From: Gemmatimonadota bacterium
Lineage (GTDB): Bacteria; Gemmatimonadota; Gemmatimonadetes; Gemmatimonadales; Gemmatimonadaceae
Direction: 5' to 3'
DNA length: 64,000 nt
NCBI GenBank assembly: GCA_021413975.1
Contig: JAIOPJ010000021.1
Coordinates: 1 to 64,000 of the forward strand
Part shown: piece after piece, positions 4,281 through 64,000 of the stretch
Numbering within the stretch: position 1 is the first letter of the stretch
How the letters are laid out: each line of letters opens with the position of its first letter
Notes under the pieces: model-generated
Databases searched by the model: none
The model's input: only the letters and a program-made list of their open reading frames with translations
Told to the model about the DNA's origin: nothing
Position numbers and translations under genes: made by a program

Positions 4281-5153
4281 TCACCCGAGCCGCGCCCGGA
4301 TGAGCTCCACGAAGTCCTTCGGCCGCTTCGCGATCCCCATCCCCGCGGCCGCGAACGCCTCGAGCTTCTCGGCCGCCGTCCCCGACGACCCGGAGATGAT
4401 CGCGCCGGCATGCCCCATCCGCCGCCCCGGCGGTGCGGTCTGCCCCGCGATGAACCCGACGACCGGCTTCTTCATGTGCTTCTTCACGAACTCGGCCGCT
4501 TCCTGCTCATCCGTCCCACCGATCTCCCCCATCATCGCGACAGCCTTGGTCTTCGGGTCCTTCTCGAAGGCCTCGAGGCAGTCGATGAAGTTGGTGCCGT
4601 TGATCGGATCGCCGCCGATGCCGACGCAGGTGGTCTGGCCGATCCCGGCGCGCGTGAGCTGGTAGACGATCTCATACGTGAGCGTACCCGACCGCGACAC
4701 GACTCCGACGGGCCCCGGCATGCAGATCCGCCCCGGGATGATCCCGACCTTCGACTCGCCCGGCGTGATGAGCCCCGGGCAGTTCGGGCCGATCAACCGC
4801 ACACCCTTCTCCTTCACGAAGGGATAGACCTTCGTCATGTCGAGCACCGGCACGCCCTCGGTGATGCAGACCACGAGCTGCACGCCGGCGGCGGCCGCTT
4901 CCATGATCGCATCGGCGGCGAACGGGGGCGGCACGTAGATCACGCTCGTGTTGGCGCCGGTCGCCTTCACGGCATCCATGACCGTGTTGAAGATCGGCAC
5001 GGTCCCCTCGAACTTCTGGCCCCCCTTGCCCGGCGTCACGCCGGCCACGACCTGGGTGCCGTACTCCATCATCTGCTTCGCGTGGAAGGAGCCGTCGCGG
5101 CCCGTGATCCCCTGGATCACCAGCTTGGTGTTCTTGTCGATGAAGACGCTCAT
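4281..5153 (-). CDS. sucD: Succinyl-CoA synthetase alpha subunit
   Basis: Catalyses the TCA-cycle step succinyl-CoA + NDP + Pi to succinate + NTP together with SucC. The 290-residue protein begins [19 protein letters not shown], has the CoA-binding Rossmann region, and carries the phosphorylated histidine at 248 in GHAGAI. GSSGTA follows it. The ATG lies one base after the sucC stop, so the pair is clearly an operon. The 2-oxoacid:ferredoxin oxidoreductase genes at 52.9-57.5 kb could supply succinyl-CoA, although no oxoglutarate dehydrogenase is visible in this window to compare. Confidence 0.97.
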
Positions 5154-5154
5154 G

Positions 5155-6294
5155 CTACTTCCCTCCCTTGGCGAGCGCGACGGCCTTCTGCACCGCCTCG
5201 TCCATGTCGCTCGACGCCGAGAAGCCGTTCTCGGTCAGGATCCTCATCGCGATCTCCTCGTTGGTGCCGGTCAGGCGGATCACGATGGGCACCTTGAGCG
5301 GGTTCGCCTTGGTGGCCGTCACGATGCCGTTCGCGACGTCATCGGTGCGCGTGATGCCGCCGAAGATGTTGAACAGGATGGCCTTCACGTTGGGGTCGGC
5401 CGTGATGATGCGGAGCGCGTTGACGACCTTCTCCGGATTCGACGACCCGCCGATGTCGAGGAAGTTCGCCGGCTCGCCGCCGTAGTACTTCACGAGGTCC
5501 ATCGTCGCCATCGCGAGGCCGGCGCCGTTCACCACGCAGCCCACGTCGCCGTCGAGCTTGATGAACGTGAGGTTCGCGTTGCGCGCGTCCACCTCGCTCG
5601 GCTCCTCGCTGCTCACGTCGCGCAGCGCGGCGATCGCGGGGAGGCGGTCGAGCTCGTTGTCGTCGATCACCATCTTGCCGTCGACCGCGATCAGTTCGCC
5701 CGTGGGCGTCACGACCAGCGGGTTGATCTCGGCGAGCGAGCAGCCGCTCGCCATGAAGGCGGCGTAGAGTTGCTGCATGATCTTCGCGGCGCCGCGCGCG
5801 AGCTTCACGTCGCCGAAGAGGAAGAAGCCCATCCGCATCGCGTCGTAGGTCGGCAGGCCGTAGCGCGGATCGACCGGCACGTAGAGGATCTTCTCGGGCG
5901 TCTCGGCGGCCACCTGCTCGATGTCGATGCCGCCGGCGGCGGACACCATGAACACCGGCTTCTTGGTCGCGCGGTCGACGATGATGCCCACGTACGCCTC
6001 GCTGCCGATGTCGGCGGCGACGGTGACGAGCACCTTCTCGACCGTGAGACCCTTGATGTCCATGCCCAGGATCGCCGTCGCCTTCTCCTTGGCGTCGGCC
6101 GGGGTCTTGCAGAACTTCACGCCGCCGGCCTTGCCGCGCCCACCGACGTGGACCTGCGCCTTGACCATGACCGCCGTGCCGTACTCCTTGGCGATCGCCT
6201 CGGCCTCGGCTGGGGTGGTGGCGACCTTGCCGGGCGGGATGTTCACGCCGTAGCCGCGGAGGATGTCCTTCGCTTGGTATTCGTGGAGATTCAC
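5155..6294 (-). CDS. sucC: ADP-forming succinyl-CoA synthetase beta subunit
   Basis: Nucleotide-binding partner of SucD, with an N-terminal ATP-grasp domain. The conserved start [16 protein letters not shown] follows a GTG at 6294, giving 379 residues, close to the family norm. A much longer open frame continues upstream but its translation is unconserved, so it was not used. [14 protein letters not shown] (about residues 44-57) is the ATP-grasp glycine-rich loop, and the C-terminal half has the GSSNPEKV and GGITR elements. The stop is TAG, which shows TAG is an ordinary stop codon in this genome. Confidence 0.96.
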
Positions 6295-6379
6295 AGCGGG
6301 CTCCAGGGGGTTTGGAAGAGAGTCCCGAAAACTAGCGGACCGGCGCCGCGATTGGCAGACGCGGAGAGACGGCCGAGCG

Positions 6380-8848
6380 CTATCGCTGCGGGCGTCCGAG
6401 CAGGCGTCCCAGCGCGGTCCACGCCTCGCCGTACGCGCGCCAATCCCCCACCCGCAGGGCCGCCGCGGCGGCGTCGTACAGCTGCGCGGCGCGCGCGCGG
6501 AAGACCTCCGGCGGGACGTCCCGCCCGGTCGGCTCGACCGACTGGCCGAGCGCGGCGGCGACGGTGCGACCGACGACGGTGCTCGAGCCCTTGAGCACCA
6601 CCACGCCGGCGAGGCGCGGCGGGCCGTCCGCCGGCCACTCGTAGAAGCTCTGGACGAAGGCGATTCCCCCGACCGTGGGGATCGCCTGCACGCGTCCGCG
6701 TCGCGAGTCCTTGAGCGCCCGTCCGAATCCCGCCTGGTCGGCCGCACGCTGCAGCGCCTGGAGGACGCCGGTCCAGTTCGTTTCCGAGGTCGGGGGCAGC
6801 AGCGTGGTGCGCGGCGCGAGACCTCCGCGCGACACGAGCAGTCCGGCCATGCGATCCGCGCTCGACACGGCGATCCCCCAGCCGAGCGTCCCGCTCGAGT
6901 CGAGTTGGTGCAAGGTCGGCGGCCCGGCCGTGAGATCGGCGTCGGCGTCGTCGACCCGCGAGAGCGATCCCCCGGTCAGCACCGCGCCCCGCACGCCGGT
7001 GCGACCGAGGATCGCGCCCTGGATCATCGTCCAGTCCGTGGCCGGAGGCAGTCCGGAGCGGAGCCAGCCCGGTGCGTCCTCGCGCGCGGTGAAGAGCGTG
7101 GGCAGTCGCGCCATCCAACCGCGCATCACCGGATCGGGTGCCGCGACGGGCAGCAGCATCACGCGGCCCGTCTGCGCCTGGACGACGGCGGTGGCCGCGT
7201 GCTGCGCGTAGTGCACGAAGCGCCCGTCGACGAGCAGTCGTTCGGTGAGCGGATAGTGTTCCGCGACCGTGAAGAGCTCGACGACCCAGTAGAGCGAGTC
7301 GCCCCGCACCACCGGCGTCACGGTCTCACCGCGGGCGAGGAACGGCGTGAGCCGGACGAGTCGGTCGATCGCATCGCGCTCGGTGACGATGCGGGGACGT
7401 GGCGACGGGGCGTCCTGCGCCAGCAGTCGCGGGTTCTGCTGGTCCCAGGCCTGCACGAGCCGCTGGAGTCCGGTCTCGAACGGCGGTGCCGCGAGTCGGC
7501 CCAGCGTGTCGGCGACGAGGGCGTAGCTCGGCGCCCCGGGGAAGACGAGCACGCCGCCGATGCCGGGCGACGCCGGCCCGACGCCCGGGAGCGGCAGTCC
7601 CGAGGGGTCGATCGCATTGCTGCGGACGAGGTCCGCCGGCCACGCGGCGCCCGGCGGTGCGTCGGTCGGCGCGCGACGGAGCAGCACGGCATCGAGCCCC
7701 ATCGCGCCGGCCTGCCACGAGAGGGCCGCGACGTCGGCCCCGCGCCGGTCGCGTTCGATGAAGCGCATGAGTGCGGCCGGGTCCCAGCTGCTCACCCACC
7801 GCGCGAGTTGCGCGTCGTCGAGTCGCTCGGGCGGGAGCGTGTCAGGGACCGCGACCTGGTCGACGCCGAAGGCGCGGCGCGTGAAGAGCAGTCGTGTCGC
7901 CTCGTACGGACGACTCCGCTCGGCGGCCGCGCGCGTGTCGCCGCGCGCGGGCGCCGCGGCCGGCAGGATCACCACGCGCGCCACCGGCCCGGCCACGAAG
8001 ACCGCGACGAGCACGCCCCACGCGAGCCGCATGTTCGCGCGCCAGACCGACCAGACGAAGATCACCGCGACGGGCAGGGCGACGAACGAGATGACGGCGA
8101 GATACGGGAGGAGGATCCGGTGATCGAACGCGGTGAACGGTCGCGCGTCGAACAGGACCGTCCCCTCGCCGCTCCCCGCCGACAGGAGCGCGAAGCGGTC
8201 GAGTCGCCATCCCCACGCGATCACCGCGATCGAGAGACCGGCGAGCACGCCGAGGTGGCGGCGGACCCACGTCGAGACATAGAGCCCCCGCTCGTCCCAC
8301 CGCACGCTGGGCGTGACGACGTAGGCGAGGAGCACCGTCATGCCGGTGATCACCAGCAGCACGGACGCGTTCTCGTACAGATGCCGCTCGAACGGCAGCC
8401 AGTTGACGAAGAACCCGAGGTCGCGGTCGAGATACGGCTCGTACTCGGCGAACGGGAGTCCGTGCATCGCCTGCGCGAGCAGCGTCCATTCCTGCTCCGA
8501 GACGGCGAAGAGCGCCGCCACGAGGAGCGCACCGACCAGTGCGAGCAGCGTCAGGCGACGGGTCGGGATCGCCTCGGCGATCTCCACGCCGCCGATCGAC
8601 CGAGGCAGGACGAGGGCGACGATCGATTGCCGGACCGCGAAGAAGTGCGCGAAGGCGAATGCGAAGGCGACAGAGGAGACGGCCGCCCGCAGCATCGTCA
8701 GGTCCAGCAGTCGCTCGCGCCAGAGCGCGTCGGCGCCGAGCGCATGGTGGAACGCCCAGTCGCCGTAGAGCCCGGCGACCCAGCGTCCCACGAGGAGAGC
8801 GAGCGCGAGCCCGGCCAGGAGCCAGAGGAGCCCGCGCCGCGCCTTCAT
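6380..8848 (-). CDS. UPF0182 family membrane protein
   Basis: Large integral membrane protein of the UPF0182 (COG1615) family, whose function is unknown. The 822 residues divide into an N-terminal half with about seven hydrophobic segments and a soluble, probably extracytoplasmic C-terminal half. The first segments lie near residues 8-25, 55-75 and 100-120, and a family-typical region of a hydrophobic stretch followed by WLPFERHLYENA lies near 145-160. Family members are usually 850-1000 residues, so this one is slightly short. The ATG lies one base before the stop of the phosphohexomutase gene upstream, so the two are probably cotranscribed. Confidence 0.85.
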   Translation of the reverse strand: MKARRGLLWLLAGLALALLVGRWVAGLYGDWAFHHALGADALWRERLLDLTMLRAAVSSVAFAFAFAHFFAVRQSIVALVLPRSIGGVEIAEAIPTRRLTLLALVGALLVAALFAVSEQEWTLLAQAMHGLPFAEYEPYLDRDLGFFVNWLPFERHLYENASVLLVITGMTVLLAYVVTPSVRWDERGLYVSTWVRRHLGVLAGLSIAVIAWGWRLDRFALLSAGSGEGTVLFDARPFTAFDHRILLPYLAVISFVALPVAVIFVWSVWRANMRLAWGVLVAVFVAGPVARVVILPAAAPARGDTRAAAERSRPYEATRLLFTRRAFGVDQVAVPDTLPPERLDDAQLARWVSSWDPAALMRFIERDRRGADVAALSWQAGAMGLDAVLLRRAPTDAPPGAAWPADLVRSNAIDPSGLPLPGVGPASPGIGGVLVFPGAPSYALVADTLGRLAAPPFETGLQRLVQAWDQQNPRLLAQDAPSPRPRIVTERDAIDRLVRLTPFLARGETVTPVVRGDSLYWVVELFTVAEHYPLTERLLVDGRFVHYAQHAATAVVQAQTGRVMLLPVAAPDPVMRGWMARLPTLFTAREDAPGWLRSGLPPATDWTMIQGAILGRTGVRGAVLTGGSLSRVDDADADLTAGPPTLHQLDSSGTLGWGIAVSSADRMAGLLVSRGGLAPRTTLLPPTSETNWTGVLQALQRAADQAGFGRALKDSRRGRVQAIPTVGGIAFVQSFYEWPADGPPRLAGVVVLKGSSTVVGRTVAAALGQSVEPTGRDVPPEVFRARAAQLYDAAAAALRVGDWRAYGEAWTALGRLLGRPQR

Positions 8849-8849
8849 C

Positions 8850-10232
8850 TCAGTGGCCGGTCCCCGGCGTGACGTTCACACCCTGCGCCGTGAGCCAGCC
8901 CTCGACCTCCCCGCGGATCGCGGCGAGCCGCGCCTCGCTGTCGGCCTCGAAGCGCATCACGAGGATCGGCTGCGTGTTGGAACTGCGGATGAGTCCCCAC
9001 CCGCCGTCGAAGAGGATCCGGACGCCATCGACGTCGGAGACCTTGTACCGGGCCGCGAAGTGCTTCAGCGCGTCCCGCACCACGACCTCCTTGCGGTCGT
9101 CGGCGCAGTCGATGCGCAGCTCGGGCGTGGAGACGAAGCGGGGGACGTCGGCGAGCAGGTCCTTCACGGTGCGCTTGGAGTCGGCGCAGATGCGCAGCAG
9201 CCGCGCGGCGCCGTAGAGCGCGTCGTCGTGGCCGTAGAACCCCTCGCCGAAGAACATGTGGCCCGACATCTCGCCGGCGATCGGCGCATGCATCGCCTTC
9301 ATCTTGTCCTTGATGAGGGAGTGGCCGGTCTTCCACATGATCGCCTTGCCGCCGGCCTTCTCGATGCCGTCGGGGAGCGCCTGCGAGCACTTCACGTCGA
9401 AGATGATCGCCTGCCCCGCCCCGGTGCGCGCGAGCACGTCGCGGGCGTAGATCAGCAGCAGGTAGTCGCCCCAGATGATCGTGCCGTCGCCGTCGACGAT
9501 GCCGATGCGGTCGGCGTCGCCGTCGAAGCCGATGCCGACCTCGCTCCCGGTGGCGCGCACGCTGCGGATCAGGTCCTGCAGGTTCTCCACGACCGTGGGA
9601 TCGGGATGATGGTTCGGGAAGGTCCCGTCGCTCTCGGCGAAGAGCATCGTCGGGGCGATGCCGAGCGCCTTGAAGAGCGCCGGCGCGACGATGGCGCCGG
9701 CGCCGTTGCCGCAGTCGATCACGACCTTCATGTCCTTGGGCAGCGGACCGATCCGTGCCGCGACGTCGGCGACGTAGCGGTCGACGACGGCCTCGTGCGT
9801 CACCTTGCCGGCACCCTTGGGGAAGACGCCCTTGGCGATGATGTCGCGGAGGTGGAGGATGCCCTCGCCATGCAGCGAGCCGGTGCCCACGCAGCACTTG
9901 AAGCCGTTGTACTCGGGCGGATTGTGCGACCCCGTGATCTGGATGCCGGCGACGACCGGGAGGTTGTGCAGCGCCCAGTAGAGCAGCGGCGTCGGCACGA
10001 CGCCGATGTCGATCACATCGAGGCCGGTCGACGTCAGGCCGCGCACGAGTGCGTCACGCAGCGCATCGCCGCTGGGGCGGTTGTCGCGACCCACCGCGAC
10101 CGCGCCCGAGAGACCGCGCTCGGCGAGGATGATCGCGTAGCCGCGGCCGATCGCCTCGGCCGCCTCGATCGTGAGGTCCTTGCCGTAGATGCCGCGGATG
10201 TCGTACTGGCGGAAGATGCCTGGGGAGATCAT
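8850..10232 (-). CDS. Phosphomannomutase/phosphoglucomutase
   Basis: Interconverts hexose 6- and 1-phosphates for sugar-nucleotide and envelope polysaccharide synthesis. The 460-residue protein has the alpha-D-phosphohexomutase layout. The phosphoserine loop TGSHNP has Ser102, the metal loop DGDADR spans 237-242, the sugar-recognition motif GEMSGH lies near 325, and the phosphate-binding segment RSSNTQP is near the C-terminus. GEMSGH points to the ManB/AlgC-type bifunctional group rather than GlmM. ATG 10232 is favoured because conserved sequence starts at MISPGIFRQYDIRG; the upstream extension is unconserved. Confidence 0.93.
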   Translation of the reverse strand: MISPGIFRQYDIRGIYGKDLTIEAAEAIGRGYAIILAERGLSGAVAVGRDNRPSGDALRDALVRGLTSTGLDVIDIGVVPTPLLYWALHNLPVVAGIQITGSHNPPEYNGFKCCVGTGSLHGEGILHLRDIIAKGVFPKGAGKVTHEAVVDRYVADVAARIGPLPKDMKVVIDCGNGAGAIVAPALFKALGIAPTMLFAESDGTFPNHHPDPTVVENLQDLIRSVRATGSEVGIGFDGDADRIGIVDGDGTIIWGDYLLLIYARDVLARTGAGQAIIFDVKCSQALPDGIEKAGGKAIMWKTGHSLIKDKMKAMHAPIAGEMSGHMFFGEGFYGHDDALYGAARLLRICADSKRTVKDLLADVPRFVSTPELRIDCADDRKEVVVRDALKHFAARYKVSDVDGVRILFDGGWGLIRSSNTQPILVMRFEADSEARLAAIRGEVEGWLTAQGVNVTPGTGH

Positions 10233-10259
10233 TGGGATCGCGGGTGGTGGATGTGCCAA

Positions 10260-10281
10260 GGGGCGCCGCAGGAGGCGCCCC
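10260..10281 (-). terminator. Hairpin after nuoN
   Basis: Perfect 8-bp inverted repeat (GGGGCGCC and GGCGCCCC) with a 6-base loop, placed between the nuoN stop and the phosphohexomutase start. It could end or attenuate the long nuo transcript before the mutase gene. No run of T follows on the minus strand, so a classic intrinsic terminator is not assured. Confidence 0.45.
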
Positions 10282-10311
10282 ATGGAACCTGCCGGGTGAG
10301 AGGCCCCTGCG

Positions 10312-11841
10312 CTACCGCCGGAACTGCGGCTGGCCCATCTGGAGCGCGGGGGAGAACGGATATCGGGGGAAGGCGTTCATCTGCGTCATCTCGACGAGTC
10401 GCGACGGGAAGAGCCCGAGGCCGAGGATGAGCACGACGGTCACGGCGAGGACGGCGCGTGTGAGCGACCCGACCGGCAGCGGCTCCGGCGCACCCTCCGG
10501 CCGCGGCTTCATGAACATCACGCGCACGACCTGCAGGTAGTAGCCGGCGGAGATCACCGAGGTCAGCACCAGGATCACGGCGAGGATCGTCAGTCCGGCC
10601 GGCGCCGCGAGCGCCGCCTGGATCAGGTACCACTTGGCGAAGAAGCCGACGCCGCCGAACACGGGGAAGCCGAGGAGTGCGAGCAGGTACACGGCCATGG
10701 CGGTGGCGAGCCAGGGCCGCACGTGCCAGAGCCCCTCGTAGTCCGAGATCCGCGCGTCGGTCTCGCCCAGCTGCTGCATCGACGCCACCACGGCGAAGGC
10801 ACCGAAGGTCGCGAGGGTGTAGGCCACGACGTAGAACGTGAAGGCGGTGCTCGCGAGCGCCGAGGCCGCCGTCACGGCGACCAGCAGGTACCCGGAATGC
10901 ACGATGCTCGAGTAGGCGAGCATGCGCTTGATGTTCTTCTGCGACAGCGCGACGACGTTGCCGACGACCATCGTCACCACGGCGAGCCACCAGACGGAGG
11001 GCGCCCAACCGGAGAACATGTTGTAGAACGCCTCGTACCAGATGCGCATGAACGTCGCGAAGGCCGCCGCCTTGACCGTCGCGGCCATGAAGGCGCTGAT
11101 CGGCGTGGGCGATCCGTCATAGACGTCGGGCGCCCACATGTGGAACGGGGCCGCCGCGACCTTGAATCCCATGCCGATGAGCATGAGGCCGATGCCGACC
11201 AGCAGCATCGGGTCGTTCGTGAGGTCGAAGCGCCGGATCGCATTGCCGATCTCGACGATCTGCGTCTGGCCGGTGGCGCCGTAGACGAGCGCGATGCCGT
11301 ACAGCAGGAAGCCGGTCGCGAACGCGCCGAGCAGGAAGTACTTGAGCGACGCCTCGGCCGAGCGCGCACTGCGCCGGTTGAGTCCCGCGAGCACGTAGAC
11401 GGCGACCGACATGATCTCGATGCCGAGGAAGACGACCATGAGGTCGCGCGCGCCGGCGAGGATCATCATGCCGGACGTGGCGAAGAGCACCAGCACATGC
11501 GACTCGGCCTGCACGATGCCGTCGCGCACGTTGTGCTCGATCGCGAGCGCGATCGTGCCGATCGCCCCGAGCAGGACGACCAGGTCGACCATCCAGCGGA
11601 ACCCGTCGACGGCGATCACGCCCTTGTCGGAGGCGGTGAGGCCGCTCACGGCCATCCACACGACGAGCCCCATCGTGAGGACGAGCAGGCCGATCGACGC
11701 GAAGCCGACGGTCCGCTGACGCGCGTCGCTGTCGGGCCGCCAGGCGGCCATGAGCATGAGCAGGATCGCACCGGCCACGAGCAGCAGGTCGGGGAGCAGC
11801 GCCGAGGAGAGCTGCACGGGATTCAGGAGATCGAAGGTCAT
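10312..11841 (-). CDS. nuoN: NADH:quinone oxidoreductase subunit N
   Basis: Antiporter-like proton-pumping membrane subunit of complex I. The 509-residue protein is hydrophobic throughout with about 14 predicted membrane helices. It has the Mrp-antiporter signature region AAAPFHMWAPDVYDGSPTP near the middle (about residues 225-245). ATG 11841 is used because the reading frame upstream is charged and unconserved and overlaps nuoM. It is the last gene of the nuoA-N operon, one base after the nuoM stop region. Lysine and glutamate residues expected in the pump channel lie within the hydrophobic helices. Confidence 0.96.
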   Translation of the reverse strand: MTFDLLNPVQLSSALLPDLLLVAGAILLMLMAAWRPDSDARQRTVGFASIGLLVLTMGLVVWMAVSGLTASDKGVIAVDGFRWMVDLVVLLGAIGTIALAIEHNVRDGIVQAESHVLVLFATSGMMILAGARDLMVVFLGIEIMSVAVYVLAGLNRRSARSAEASLKYFLLGAFATGFLLYGIALVYGATGQTQIVEIGNAIRRFDLTNDPMLLVGIGLMLIGMGFKVAAAPFHMWAPDVYDGSPTPISAFMAATVKAAAFATFMRIWYEAFYNMFSGWAPSVWWLAVVTMVVGNVVALSQKNIKRMLAYSSIVHSGYLLVAVTAASALASTAFTFYVVAYTLATFGAFAVVASMQQLGETDARISDYEGLWHVRPWLATAMAVYLLALLGFPVFGGVGFFAKWYLIQAALAAPAGLTILAVILVLTSVISAGYYLQVVRVMFMKPRPEGAPEPLPVGSLTRAVLAVTVVLILGLGLFPSRLVEMTQMNAFPRYPFSPALQMGQPQFRR

Positions 11842-58170: not shown

Positions 58171-58995
58171 TCAGGGAGCGCTCTCGGCCGGGCGCACCAG
58201 CCACTGCACGATCGCCTCGGCCGCCTCGGCCGGGTCGCGGAACCCGATCCGCATCACCGGCACCGCCGAGACCAACCGGCTGAGCGCGCGCGCCGCCCGG
58301 ACCCCATGATCGGCGAAGTTCCACGTACCGGCCGCGATCTCCACGAGCGCCTCCGACGGCGCGCACCGTTCGAAGGTGAGCCCGGTGCCTCGATGTGCCG
58401 CGGGCAACAGGATCGCCCGCAGCGGGAGCGTACTCCCTTCGATCCGGTCGTCCACGGCGATCTCCTTCTTCGCCACCTCCAGGAGCCAGCTCGCCGGCTT
58501 CTCCTCGCCCGGGTCGGGTCGCACTTCGGGCACGCGTGGAAAGGGGATCACCTCGAGCCGTTCGGGATCGACCGGGAGGATGTCGTCCGAGAGGAAGCTC
58601 GCGCCGCGGTCGCAGAGCGCCGTGACGATCGTGCTCTTCCCCCTCCCGCGCTGCCCCGCCACCAACACCGCCCCACCCTGCCATCCCGCGGCGGCTCCGT
58701 GCAGCCAGAGCAGGTCGGGACGCGCGGCGATCATCGCCTCGAGCACGCGCTGGCGCGCCCATCGCAATGCGGCGCGCTCGTCCGCTCGCTCGACGCCCTG
58801 CCCGCTCGAGTCGCGACAGATGAATCGCGCCCCCTCCTGCCGTATGTCGATCTCGAGGACCGACTCGGCACCCTGCACGCCGAGCATGTGACGGAACGTG
58901 CTGCCGAGCGAGCGCGTGATCTCATCATGATCCGATCGGATCACGACCTGATGGGCTCCGAACGCCACCTCGACGGACCGGTCCCGGCCGCTCAC
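58171..58995 (-). CDS. HPr-kinase-like P-loop protein of RiPP-like locus
   Basis: A 274-residue kinase-like protein. The Walker A motif GQRGRGKST lies at residues 114-122, preceded by LHGAAAG and followed by FLSDD, a pattern like HPr kinase C-terminal domains. Similar proteins occur in lasso-peptide and other RiPP clusters, where one phosphorylates the peptide C-terminus (paeninodin type); this role here is inferred. It starts at GTG 58995, overlapping the stop of the PqqD-like gene (GTGA). A precursor-like peptide is encoded on the other strand 600 bases away. Confidence 0.78.
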   Translation of the reverse strand: MSGRDRSVEVAFGAHQVVIRSDHDEITRSLGSTFRHMLGVQGAESVLEIDIRQEGARFICRDSSGQGVERADERAALRWARQRVLEAMIAARPDLLWLHGAAAGWQGGAVLVAGQRGRGKSTIVTALCDRGASFLSDDILPVDPERLEVIPFPRVPEVRPDPGEEKPASWLLEVAKKEIAVDDRIEGSTLPLRAILLPAAHRGTGLTFERCAPSEALVEIAAGTWNFADHGVRAARALSRLVSAVPVMRIGFRDPAEAAEAIVQWLVRPAESAP

Positions 58996-59336
58996 ACGAG
59001 TTCGAGCAGGGCGAGCGTCCCGAGTTGCCCGATCACGGCGTGCACGTCTGCCAGCACCGCGTCGACCGGATGGCCGACCGCCGAACTCAGCTCGCGCGCG
59101 ATGTCGGCGACCGTCCGCGTGCCGTCGCAGAGATCCCAGACCGCCCAGGCGGAGGTGTTCAGCGTGTGGACCACCTGCCTCCCTTCGTGGAAGAGCAGCA
59201 TCTCGGCGTCACCCAGCGGGAACTCCTTCACGGCCGATCCCCGGACGACCCGACTGCCGTCGCCCACCGCGAAGGGGCGATTCGCCGGGAGTTCGTCCGG
59301 CGCGGGATCGACGGAACTCGGATCGGTGCTGCTCAT
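58992..59336 (-). CDS. PqqD-like RiPP recognition protein
   Basis: A 114-residue protein of the PqqD family. The C-terminal 85 residues have the winged-helix pattern: LFHEGRQVVHTLNTSAWAVW, then DGTRTVADIARELSSAVG and DVHAVIGQL. These domains bind leader peptides in RiPP biosynthesis. The N-terminal 30 residues are acidic and unconserved. ATG 59336 is clear. It is the first gene of a two-gene operon with the HPr-kinase-like protein, divergent from the short peptide gene at 59597. Confidence 0.82.
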   Translation of the reverse strand: MSSTDPSSVDPAPDELPANRPFAVGDGSRVVRGSAVKEFPLGDAEMLLFHEGRQVVHTLNTSAWAVWDLCDGTRTVADIARELSSAVGHPVDAVLADVHAVIGQLGTLALLELV

Positions 59337-59596
59337 GTCGGAACTCGTTCACAGGGCTGAGAGGTGCGACCGAAGGGGGGGAATATACGGAGGTCCGGGC
59401 TGAGTCCGCGCGGGCGCCGGCGCCGCAACTGACGGCTCGACTCTGTGGTCCCGCCGCCACAGAATGACCTCGACGTAGCCTCGTATACGTATGTGGTTCA
59501 AGGAGTTACGGACACGTGTACTGGCCCCAATCTTGCATCACACCCAATCATCCGCGCGGTCGCGCGAGGCGCATTCCGACTTCAGGGGGGTAGCGA
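59337..59596. other. Divergent spacer of RiPP-like locus
   Basis: About 260 bases separate the PqqD-like gene (minus) from the peptide gene (plus). The only clear signal is a purine-rich GGGGGG ribosome binding site at the right end. A small palindrome ATACGTAT lies near 59486. The spacer probably holds two promoters, but none can be placed with confidence. Confidence 0.4.
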
Positions 59597-59776
59597 ATGG
59601 ACATGGAGAAGATGGCTGCGAGCTTGTCCGCTTCACGGACGGCGGTGAGTCGTCGCGCGCTGGTCAAGGCCGGCTGGGTCGTGCCGGTGGTGCTCGCGGT
59701 GGGGATCCCGCGAAACGCGCTCGCGCAGACGGGTTCCGACGCCGGCGTACTGATCGATCCAGGCCAGGACACCTGA
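59597..59776 (+). CDS. Short precursor-like peptide, 59 residues
   Basis: A 59-codon gene, ATG 59597 to TGA 59776, with GGGGGG seven bases upstream. The peptide has a twin-arginine-like motif SRRALVK (residues 18-24), a hydrophobic stretch AGWVVPVVLAVGIP (25-38), and an A-x-A-like cleavage site ALAQ (41-44). The C-terminal tail, residues 44-59 (QTGSDAGVLIDPGQDT), is acidic and Gly-rich and ends in Thr. A strong terminator follows at once. It is most likely the substrate of the neighbouring PqqD-like, HPr-kinase-like and nucleotidyltransferase proteins, with the tail as core. Alternatively it is a small Tat-exported protein. The function is inferred. Confidence 0.7.
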   Translation: MDMEKMAASLSASRTAVSRRALVKAGWVVPVVLAVGIPRNALAQTGSDAGVLIDPGQDT

Positions 59777-59785
59777 GGCCGCCCG

Positions 59786-59820
59786 AACGGGGACCCTGAA
59801 TGGGGTCCCCGTTCTTGTTT
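59786..59820 (+). terminator. Intrinsic terminator after precursor peptide gene
   Basis: Inverted repeat AACGGGGACCC / GGGTCCCCGTT (11 bp perfect, loop TGAATG), followed by CTTGTTT. It starts nine bases after the peptide stop. The hairpin and T-rich tail match a Rho-independent terminator, supporting independent expression of the short peptide gene. Confidence 0.85.
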
Positions 59821-60899
59821 CAGGGCTCCGGCACGCGCCCGGCGAACGTCCGCATCACCGACCGCGTGAACTCGATCACTCTCGCGGGCCACGAGCGCTC
59901 GTCGGTGAGCACACGGACCCAGGCGATCGCGACCCAGTTCGGCAGGAGCGCATCGTCCGTGACGCGCAGGGCGAGCCCCCTGATCGCGGCGAGCAGCAGC
60001 CGATCCTCCAACGGCCCGACTCCGGCCGTGCGGCGCAAGGCCGCGAGCGCGACGTCGCTCACGTCCGCGCCCACCATGACCTGCGCGGCCCGCAGACCCG
60101 CGTACATCGCGCGCTCCACGCCGGCGCTGTCGCGGACCGCCGCCGCCCAGTCGACCGCCGCTTCGCGACGACGCGTCACCTCCGCGATATCGCGCAGGGC
60201 CGACAGGCCGCCCGCGAACCGATTGGCGAGCGCGAGGTGCAACGTGAGGTGGATCAGGAGGTCCGAGGGGGCGAGCGTCGCGACCGGCCGCCCCGCGAGC
60301 AACTCGGGATGTGCACGCGCCGTCAGCGTCTCGGACGAGACGCCCAGGGGGATCCAGAGCGGCAGAAGGCGGTGGTGCAGCTCAACCGTCACGGAGCCGC
60401 GCCTGTAGGGCACGAGATGGTGCAGGTTGTCGAGATACCACTCCCGCGGTCGGTACCACTCGTCGGGAGTGAATCCGATCTCCTCCAGGACTTGGGCGGC
60501 CTCGAGGACCTGCCCCGCCGGGACCATCAGGTCGAGGTCGTGCATGGCGCGCAGCCCGACGTCGCGGTAGACGGGCTCCAGCAGCGCGGCGCCCTTGAGC
60601 ACGACGACGGGGATGGCGCGCAGCTCGAGCGCGGAGAGGACCTCCGAGAGCGTCGCGAGCAGCAGTGCGTTCTTGGCGCTCACCGCGTAGTAGATCCGCT
60701 GCAGCTCCGCCAACGGCTCGGCGGGGATCCCATGGTCGCGCGGGTCGCGCGCGATCGCGCTCCGTAGTTGTCCGGCGACGCCAAGTCGCGTGGCGGCCCC
60801 GACGACGCGCGGCCACTCCTCGGCGGTGAGGATCGGCGATGCCGGAGGCCCGTCGGCGCGACAGACATCGAACAGCACCGCGCGTTCGCGTGGATCCAT
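59820..60899 (-). CDS. Uncharacterised nucleotidyltransferase (NTP_transf_5-like)
   Basis: A 359-residue nucleotidyltransferase-fold protein. The core VVLKGAALLEPVYRD (about 99-113) and HDLDLMVP (120-127), with catalytic aspartates 121 and 123, matches the NTP_transf_5-type family often seen in lasso-peptide and other RiPP clusters. The C-terminal half is helical. ATG 60899 was chosen since sequence upstream is unconserved. The gene lies 23 bases after the sdh-linked hypothetical gene on the same strand and may be read through from the sdh operon. It also converges with the precursor gene across the terminator. Confidence 0.8.
   Translation of the reverse strand: MDPRERAVLFDVCRADGPPASPILTAEEWPRVVGAATRLGVAGQLRSAIARDPRDHGIPAEPLAELQRIYYAVSAKNALLLATLSEVLSALELRAIPVVVLKGAALLEPVYRDVGLRAMHDLDLMVPAGQVLEAAQVLEEIGFTPDEWYRPREWYLDNLHHLVPYRRGSVTVELHHRLLPLWIPLGVSSETLTARAHPELLAGRPVATLAPSDLLIHLTLHLALANRFAGGLSALRDIAEVTRRREAAVDWAAAVRDSAGVERAMYAGLRAAQVMVGADVSDVALAALRRTAGVGPLEDRLLLAAIRGLALRVTDDALLPNWVAIAWVRVLTDERSWPARVIEFTRSVMRTFAGRVPEP

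Positions 60900-62195: not shown

Positions 62196-64000
<1,805 letters not shown>

Follow-up and report, generated by a model that had tools for sequence, protein, structure and literature searches.

What might a PqqD-like recognition protein, an HprK-like kinase, and a nucleotidyltransferase do beside a gene for a 59-amino-acid peptide if no lasso peptide cyclase is encoded with them? This question is raised by a group of genes near one end of the 64,000-nucleotide stretch of Gemmatimonadota DNA that was analyzed, hereafter called the window (Table 1). The original prediction described a RiPP-like locus composed of these three protein genes and a 59-codon peptide gene with its own terminator, and pointed to the absence of a cyclase and a protease. 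All of these components are indeed present, the set is conserved, and the region encodes neither an asparagine synthetase nor a transglutaminase-type protease. The accompanying interpretation, in which a peptide tail is phosphorylated or nucleotidylated without lasso folding, is partly supported. On balance, the locus is probably a small peptide-modification-and-export cassette for which the 59-amino-acid peptide serves as the substrate.

Table 1. Features of the cassette, with positions as numbered in the window
Feature	Position	Strand	Details	Basis
HprK-like P-loop kinase	58171-58995	-	274 aa; H99, Walker A G114-S121, D137/D138	HprK_rel_A below cut-off; HprK/PEPCK fold; catalytic residues invariant in 8 orthologues
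PqqD-like RRE	58992-59336	-	114 aa; 4-base overlap with kinase gene	PF05402, E=9e-13
Inverted repeat TCTGTGG-N8-CCACAGA	59442-59463	.	Separates the divergent PqqD and peptide genes; candidate operator	
59-aa peptide gene, presumed substrate	59597-59776	+		Orthologues adjoin PqqD/HprK in four other genomes; dN/dS 0.06-0.22
Tat-type signal/leader, residues 1-43	59597-59725	+	SRRALVK, W27xxP30, ALA	Inspection; kept in alignment
Predicted mature tail QTGSDAGVLIDPGQDT	59726-59773	+	Variable among relatives	Inferred from AxA site
Terminator hairpin	59785-59814	.	Separates the convergent peptide and NTP_transf_5 genes	
NTP_transf_5 nucleotidyltransferase	59820-60899	-	359 aa; D121xD123 conserved (alignment)	PF14907, E=2e-46

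The peptide gene is divergent from the PqqD and kinase genes and convergent with the NTP_transf_5 gene, and the hairpin that follows it has a 13-bp stem and a T-rich tail (1 terminator found versus 0.2 expected). The inverted repeat is a possible operator, and its CTGTGG sequence is common to the related loci in genomes G157 and G214, as judged from a weak alignment. Farther along the window, sdhA (62196-63998) is broken by an in-frame TAG at 63588-63590 on the minus strand, where relatives have a Glu codon, and this might reflect either a sequencing error or a real lesion.

The peptide (MDMEKMAASLSASRTAVSRRALVKAGWVVPVVLAVGIPRNALAQTGSDAGVLIDPGQDT) carries SRRALVK, then a hydrophobic stretch, an ALA/Q site, and a tail of approximately 16 residues. 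Its N terminus reads as a Tat-type (twin-arginine) export signal. On inspection, the peptide has the layout of a Tat substrate (S/T-R-R motif, hydrophobic stretch, AxA site), and its relatives are alike. General Tat models miss the window peptide, which gives no match to the TAT signal model TIGR01409 at E<=1 and whose signal likewise goes unrecognized by Pfam, and so this reading rests on inspection and on the relatives, among which the fused relative L085 passes the TIGR01409 cut-off. The SRRxxxK and ALAQ elements, originally named as features by which to search for such short peptides, are not RiPP-specific and instead belong to the Tat-type signal. TatC is encoded in the same genome (E=1.6e-58), whereas none was found in the draft assembly of G214.

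The dN/dS values of the peptide (Table 1) were obtained from comparisons among three congeners and denote purifying selection, and thus the peptide gene is considered real. Third codon positions differ 12-19 times in these comparisons, versus 5-10 times for the first and second positions together. In an alignment of four peptides, the signal region is better conserved than the tail, which varies among relatives. A precursor with a conserved leader and a variable core that is linked to an RRE is what is expected of RRE-dependent RiPPs. Furthermore, the hydrophobic stretch contains WVVPVV, a [W/Y/F/L]xxP motif similar to known RRE-binding motifs, and each of the 24 peptides compared has an aromatic or hydrophobic residue located three positions ahead of a Pro. 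Leader motifs of the W/Y/LxxP type are bound by many RRE groups (PMC12710340). Because Pro is not rare in or near the hydrophobic stretches of signals, the motif must be taken as a lead rather than as proof.

The window kinase has the features expected of an HprK/PEPCK-fold kinase, namely the fold itself, the catalytic His, the Walker A motif, and the Asp-Asp pair. Its match to the HPr kinase C-terminal domain of Pfam is under the cut-off, and its match to HprK_rel_A (TIGR04352; E=2.6e-15) reaches 56.3 bits against a cut-off of 200 bits. All PDB matches of its AlphaFold2 model (pLDDT 90) at E<=0.001 are to PEPCK or HprK/P. Residues H99, K120, S121, D137, and D138, which correspond to catalytic positions of HprK, are invariant in all eight kinase orthologues. 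The PqqD-like protein and the nucleotidyltransferase match their Pfam families above the cut-offs, the former having the PqqD fold of an RRE, and PDB sequence searches with these two proteins returned no matches. Against TIGR04353, the window PqqD scores 14.7 bits, under the 35-bit cut-off, and the fused relatives L085 and L087 score 26-30 bits. When the PqqD domain of a fused relative was used in a structure search, the best PDB matches were the leader-bound TbiB1 and another leader-bound lasso B1 protein, at marginal E-values of 2e-3 to 0.13 and a TM-score on the target of about 0.7; the predicted model is of low confidence outside the PqqD domain.

Profile searches were performed on 395 Gemmatimonadota genomes. 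The kinase profile recovered eight full-length orthologues at E<1e-42, followed by a gap, with the rest at E>=3.6e-17. A separate peptide adjoins PqqD in five of these orthologous loci (own genome, G157, G214, G042, and G323), and in the remaining three (G268, G270, and G298) the C terminus of PqqD is fused to a Tat-like segment. An independent search with a peptide profile gave E<1e-26 only in own genome, G157, G214, and G042. The match in G323 is weak (4.7e-4) and lies at the correct place, and other matches are at noise level. In all five genomes with a profile match, the peptide adjoins PqqD and the HprK-like gene. A scan of genome contigs with a two-kinase alignment recovered the G042 locus only, its patterns being too narrow.

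The cassette occupies different chromosomal sites in three congeners, and the korB and 160-aa genes that flank it here are directly adjacent, with no cassette between them, in G157. Thus, the cassette genes move together. Three of the five separate-peptide loci have an adjacent nucleotidyltransferase gene, and no NTP_transf_5 gene is found near the G214 cassette. The expectation that all four genes would co-occur was therefore borne out for the peptide, PqqD, and HprK-like genes, but not always for the nucleotidyltransferase. The original prediction also named what would refute it, either loss of the peptide from relatives or PqqD and HprK-like genes lying apart from it. That check was run and did not refute the prediction, since the linkage is present, with no lasso cyclase, wherever the peptide profile matches. 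The G323 locus (L084) also carries, beside its window-type HprK/PqqD/Tat-peptide set, a lasso-type precursor accompanied by a separate HprK-like gene.

A wider survey covered the neighborhoods of 77 HprK-like genes, with the list of Tat-like peptides completed by hand. A Tat-like peptide, either separate or fused to PqqD, occurs at 26 of these loci and an asparagine-synthetase-type enzyme at 30, and the two never coincide (Fisher p=6e-8, with related loci being non-independent). The automatic caller alone finds Tat-like open reading frames 3.3-fold enriched at <=2.5 kb from the kinase. Tat-like peptides are spread over several kinase groups, and the sampled lasso-type kinases cluster together. 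More distant HprK-like genes on plasmids of Methylosinus, Methylobacterium, Tistrella, and Halopiger have no Tat-like peptide in the parts examined, and so the association cannot be a rule for all HprK-like genes. Five loci (L042, L046, L097, L153, and L176) have a related arrangement in which PqqD and a methyltransferase are found with an HprK-like gene and a Tat-like peptide whose tail is Pro-rich, and in some of these the methyltransferase has a second PqqD-like part. Also, minor-pilin-like operons adjoin PqqD/HprK cassettes in three distant genomes (L039 5109-9036, L083 9127-13122, and L231 5833-9735), which may be a coincidence.

A profile of PqqD-Tat fusions detected this architecture in approximately 18 genomes, and a plasmid search with the PqqD-Tat fusion found nothing. 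Of eight fusion loci outside the kinase set, an HprK gene accompanies four but is missing from the fetched stretch of the other four. The signals of these fusions are conserved and their tails are variable (Gly/Ser/Asp-, Gln/Asn-, or Cys-rich), which is the usual leader/core pattern of RiPPs. Three loci (L142, L155, and L157) encode two fusions each; some of the tails are near-identical Gln/Asn/Gly repeats, and those of L155 are Cys-rich. In several genomes, fusions (L224, L227, L099, and L231) are located close to rpoC and the fusA/ribosomal region, with no HprK gene in the stretch in some cases.

How might such a cassette operate? The Tat-type signal of the peptide would also serve as its leader, which the PqqD-like RRE might bind via the WxxPxV segment, thereby retaining the peptide in the cytoplasm. 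The RRE could then present the tail to the HprK-like kinase for phosphorylation of a Ser or Thr, and NTP_transf_5, where present, might attach a nucleotidyl or sugar group. Subsequently, the peptide would be handed over to the Tat translocon, and signal peptidase would cleave it after ALA, such that no dedicated RiPP protease or cyclase would be needed. Signal peptidase is the likely cutter because TatC is present and the genome has no B2 protease above the cut-off. What we infer for this system are the binding event, the nature and position of the modifications, the succession of steps, and Tat export and cleavage.

The proposal that the tail is tagged before export draws on analogy with lasso clusters, in which the Ser at the C terminus of the linear precursor is phosphorylated by HprK-like kinases; in the pseudomycoidin cluster, the nucleotidyltransferase adds a hexose onto that phosphate (PMC8498205). 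A C-terminal Ser or Thr was considered as a universal kinase target and rejected, as the five closest peptides end in T, T, S, I, and R. Given this lack of conservation and a nucleotidyltransferase that is not always adjacent, the lasso-kinase chemistry is not simply transferable to the window.

Some of the same observations suit an alternative that we regard as unlikely, if worth weighing, in which PqqD, the kinase, and NTP_transf_5 form a quality-control module that binds the Tat signal and gates peptide export. The kinase would act as a regulator of this gate or of some other protein, and the tail would remain unmodified. A signal that is better conserved than the tail, PqqD fused directly ahead of the signal in many genomes, and the variable C-terminal residue are all consistent with such a gate. 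However, this would be an elaborate gate, since it would employ two distinct transferase-type enzymes whose catalytic residues are conserved and whose relatives are known to tailor peptides (PMC8498205). More doubtful still is the idea that the trio acts on another target, such as a polysaccharide or an unlinked protein, and that the peptide is merely a co-regulated neighbor. Several related loci do lie within polysaccharide clusters, but those of the window, G157, and G214 do not, and the linkage or fusion to the peptide holds across families and sites.

The modification-and-export reading also must be set against lasso peptide biosynthesis. An asparagine-synthetase-type cyclase is absent from the region and from the 5 kb around the window kinase, although one is encoded elsewhere in the genome, and no B2 protease (PF13471) above the cut-off was found in this 92.7%-complete genome. 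In the alignment of four peptides, the penultimate leader Thr is missing, and the peptides do not share a ring acceptor at core position 7-9. For these reasons, the window locus is not a lasso cluster. The same genome does hold a second PqqD/HprK/NTP_transf_5 cluster (L045, G000:C7:119000-138000, approximately 4600-10849), which includes an asparagine synthetase and a methyltransferase. Two short YxxPxL peptides, both ending in RRTG, are encoded in it, in a genome that nevertheless lacks a PF13471 protease above the cut-off. Because this asparagine-synthetase-type enzyme adjoins an HprK-like gene, the cyclase of the second cluster might be imagined to act in trans on the window peptide as a lasso precursor. 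This is very improbable in view of the absent protease, the precursor features just described, and the mutual exclusion of Tat-like peptides and asparagine synthetases among the 77 loci. Finally, a chance grouping of unrelated genes, for which low individual similarity is the only argument, can be dismissed given recurrence at different chromosomal sites in other genomes and the PqqD-peptide fusions.

Several known systems resemble the proposed modification-and-export cassette in part. Lasso clusters with a kinase and a nucleotidyltransferase, such as those for paeninodin and pseudomycoidin, share with it a PqqD-like B1 protein, an HprK-like kinase, and a nucleotidyltransferase (PMC8498205, PMC5067487), as well as a W/YxxP-type motif in the leader (PMC12710340). 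Unlike these clusters, the window locus has no cyclase, B2 protease, or penultimate Thr, and a Tat-type export signal serves as its leader. Signal-peptide-bearing RiPPs, including DUF2063/DUF2282 pairs and bufferins, similarly have a general export signal on the precursor (PMC12710340, PMC12452194). Their signals are of the Sec type, and bufferins rely on MNIO enzymes (iron-dependent oxidases), whereas the window has a Tat-type signal, PqqD, and a kinase. A further parallel is offered by Tat proofreading chaperones such as NapD and TorD, in that a small cytoplasmic protein is proposed to retain a Tat signal until maturation has finished. The window differs from these in using the PqqD/RRE fold and in having a peptide, rather than a redox enzyme, as the substrate.

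The closest parallel is the HPr-rel-A system of NCBIfam, which is composed of HprK-related kinase A (TIGR04352), a PqqD protein (TIGR04353), and a nucleotidyltransferase. Among open-licence literature, no papers were found on the function or substrate of this system or on a PqqD-linked Tat-signal RiPP. The same three enzyme families occur together in the window, including the NTP_transf_5 member. Two plasmid systems from Pseudomonadota provide examples, one from Vibrio alfacsensis (kinase at 318 bits against the 200-bit TIGR04352 cut-off, with NTP_transf_5 present) and one from Sphingomonas parapaucimobilis that is named HPr-rel-A in RefSeq; the Sphingomonas kinase had no matches among phages or viral contigs. 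Like the window, both carry a Tat-signal protein, here as the first gene and of unnamed function (SRRRFIRS...AWA/G, 270 aa; SRRMLMLG...ALA/Q, 161 aa, respectively). As two cases outside the phylum, and not a survey, these are suggestive. The window kinase and PqqD are far under the family cut-offs, and the cargo tail has approximately 16 residues versus 100 or more. The cassette is thus best read as a compact, divergent relative of the HPr-rel-A system, with "divergent" reflecting these scores. More tentatively, such loci might represent an unrecognized class of exported modified peptides that is free of cyclases and present in at least Gemmatimonadota and Pseudomonadota, in which an RRE-bound Tat signal acts as the leader, and Tat export is coupled to the chemical tagging carried out by an HprK-like kinase together with a nucleotidyltransferase. 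This suggests that RiPP-type recognition and Tat export may merge in one signal sequence. Relative to the HPr-rel-A grouping that NCBI has named, the Tat-signal partner is the new element, and its linkage and fusion to PqqD provide a concrete candidate for the substrate.
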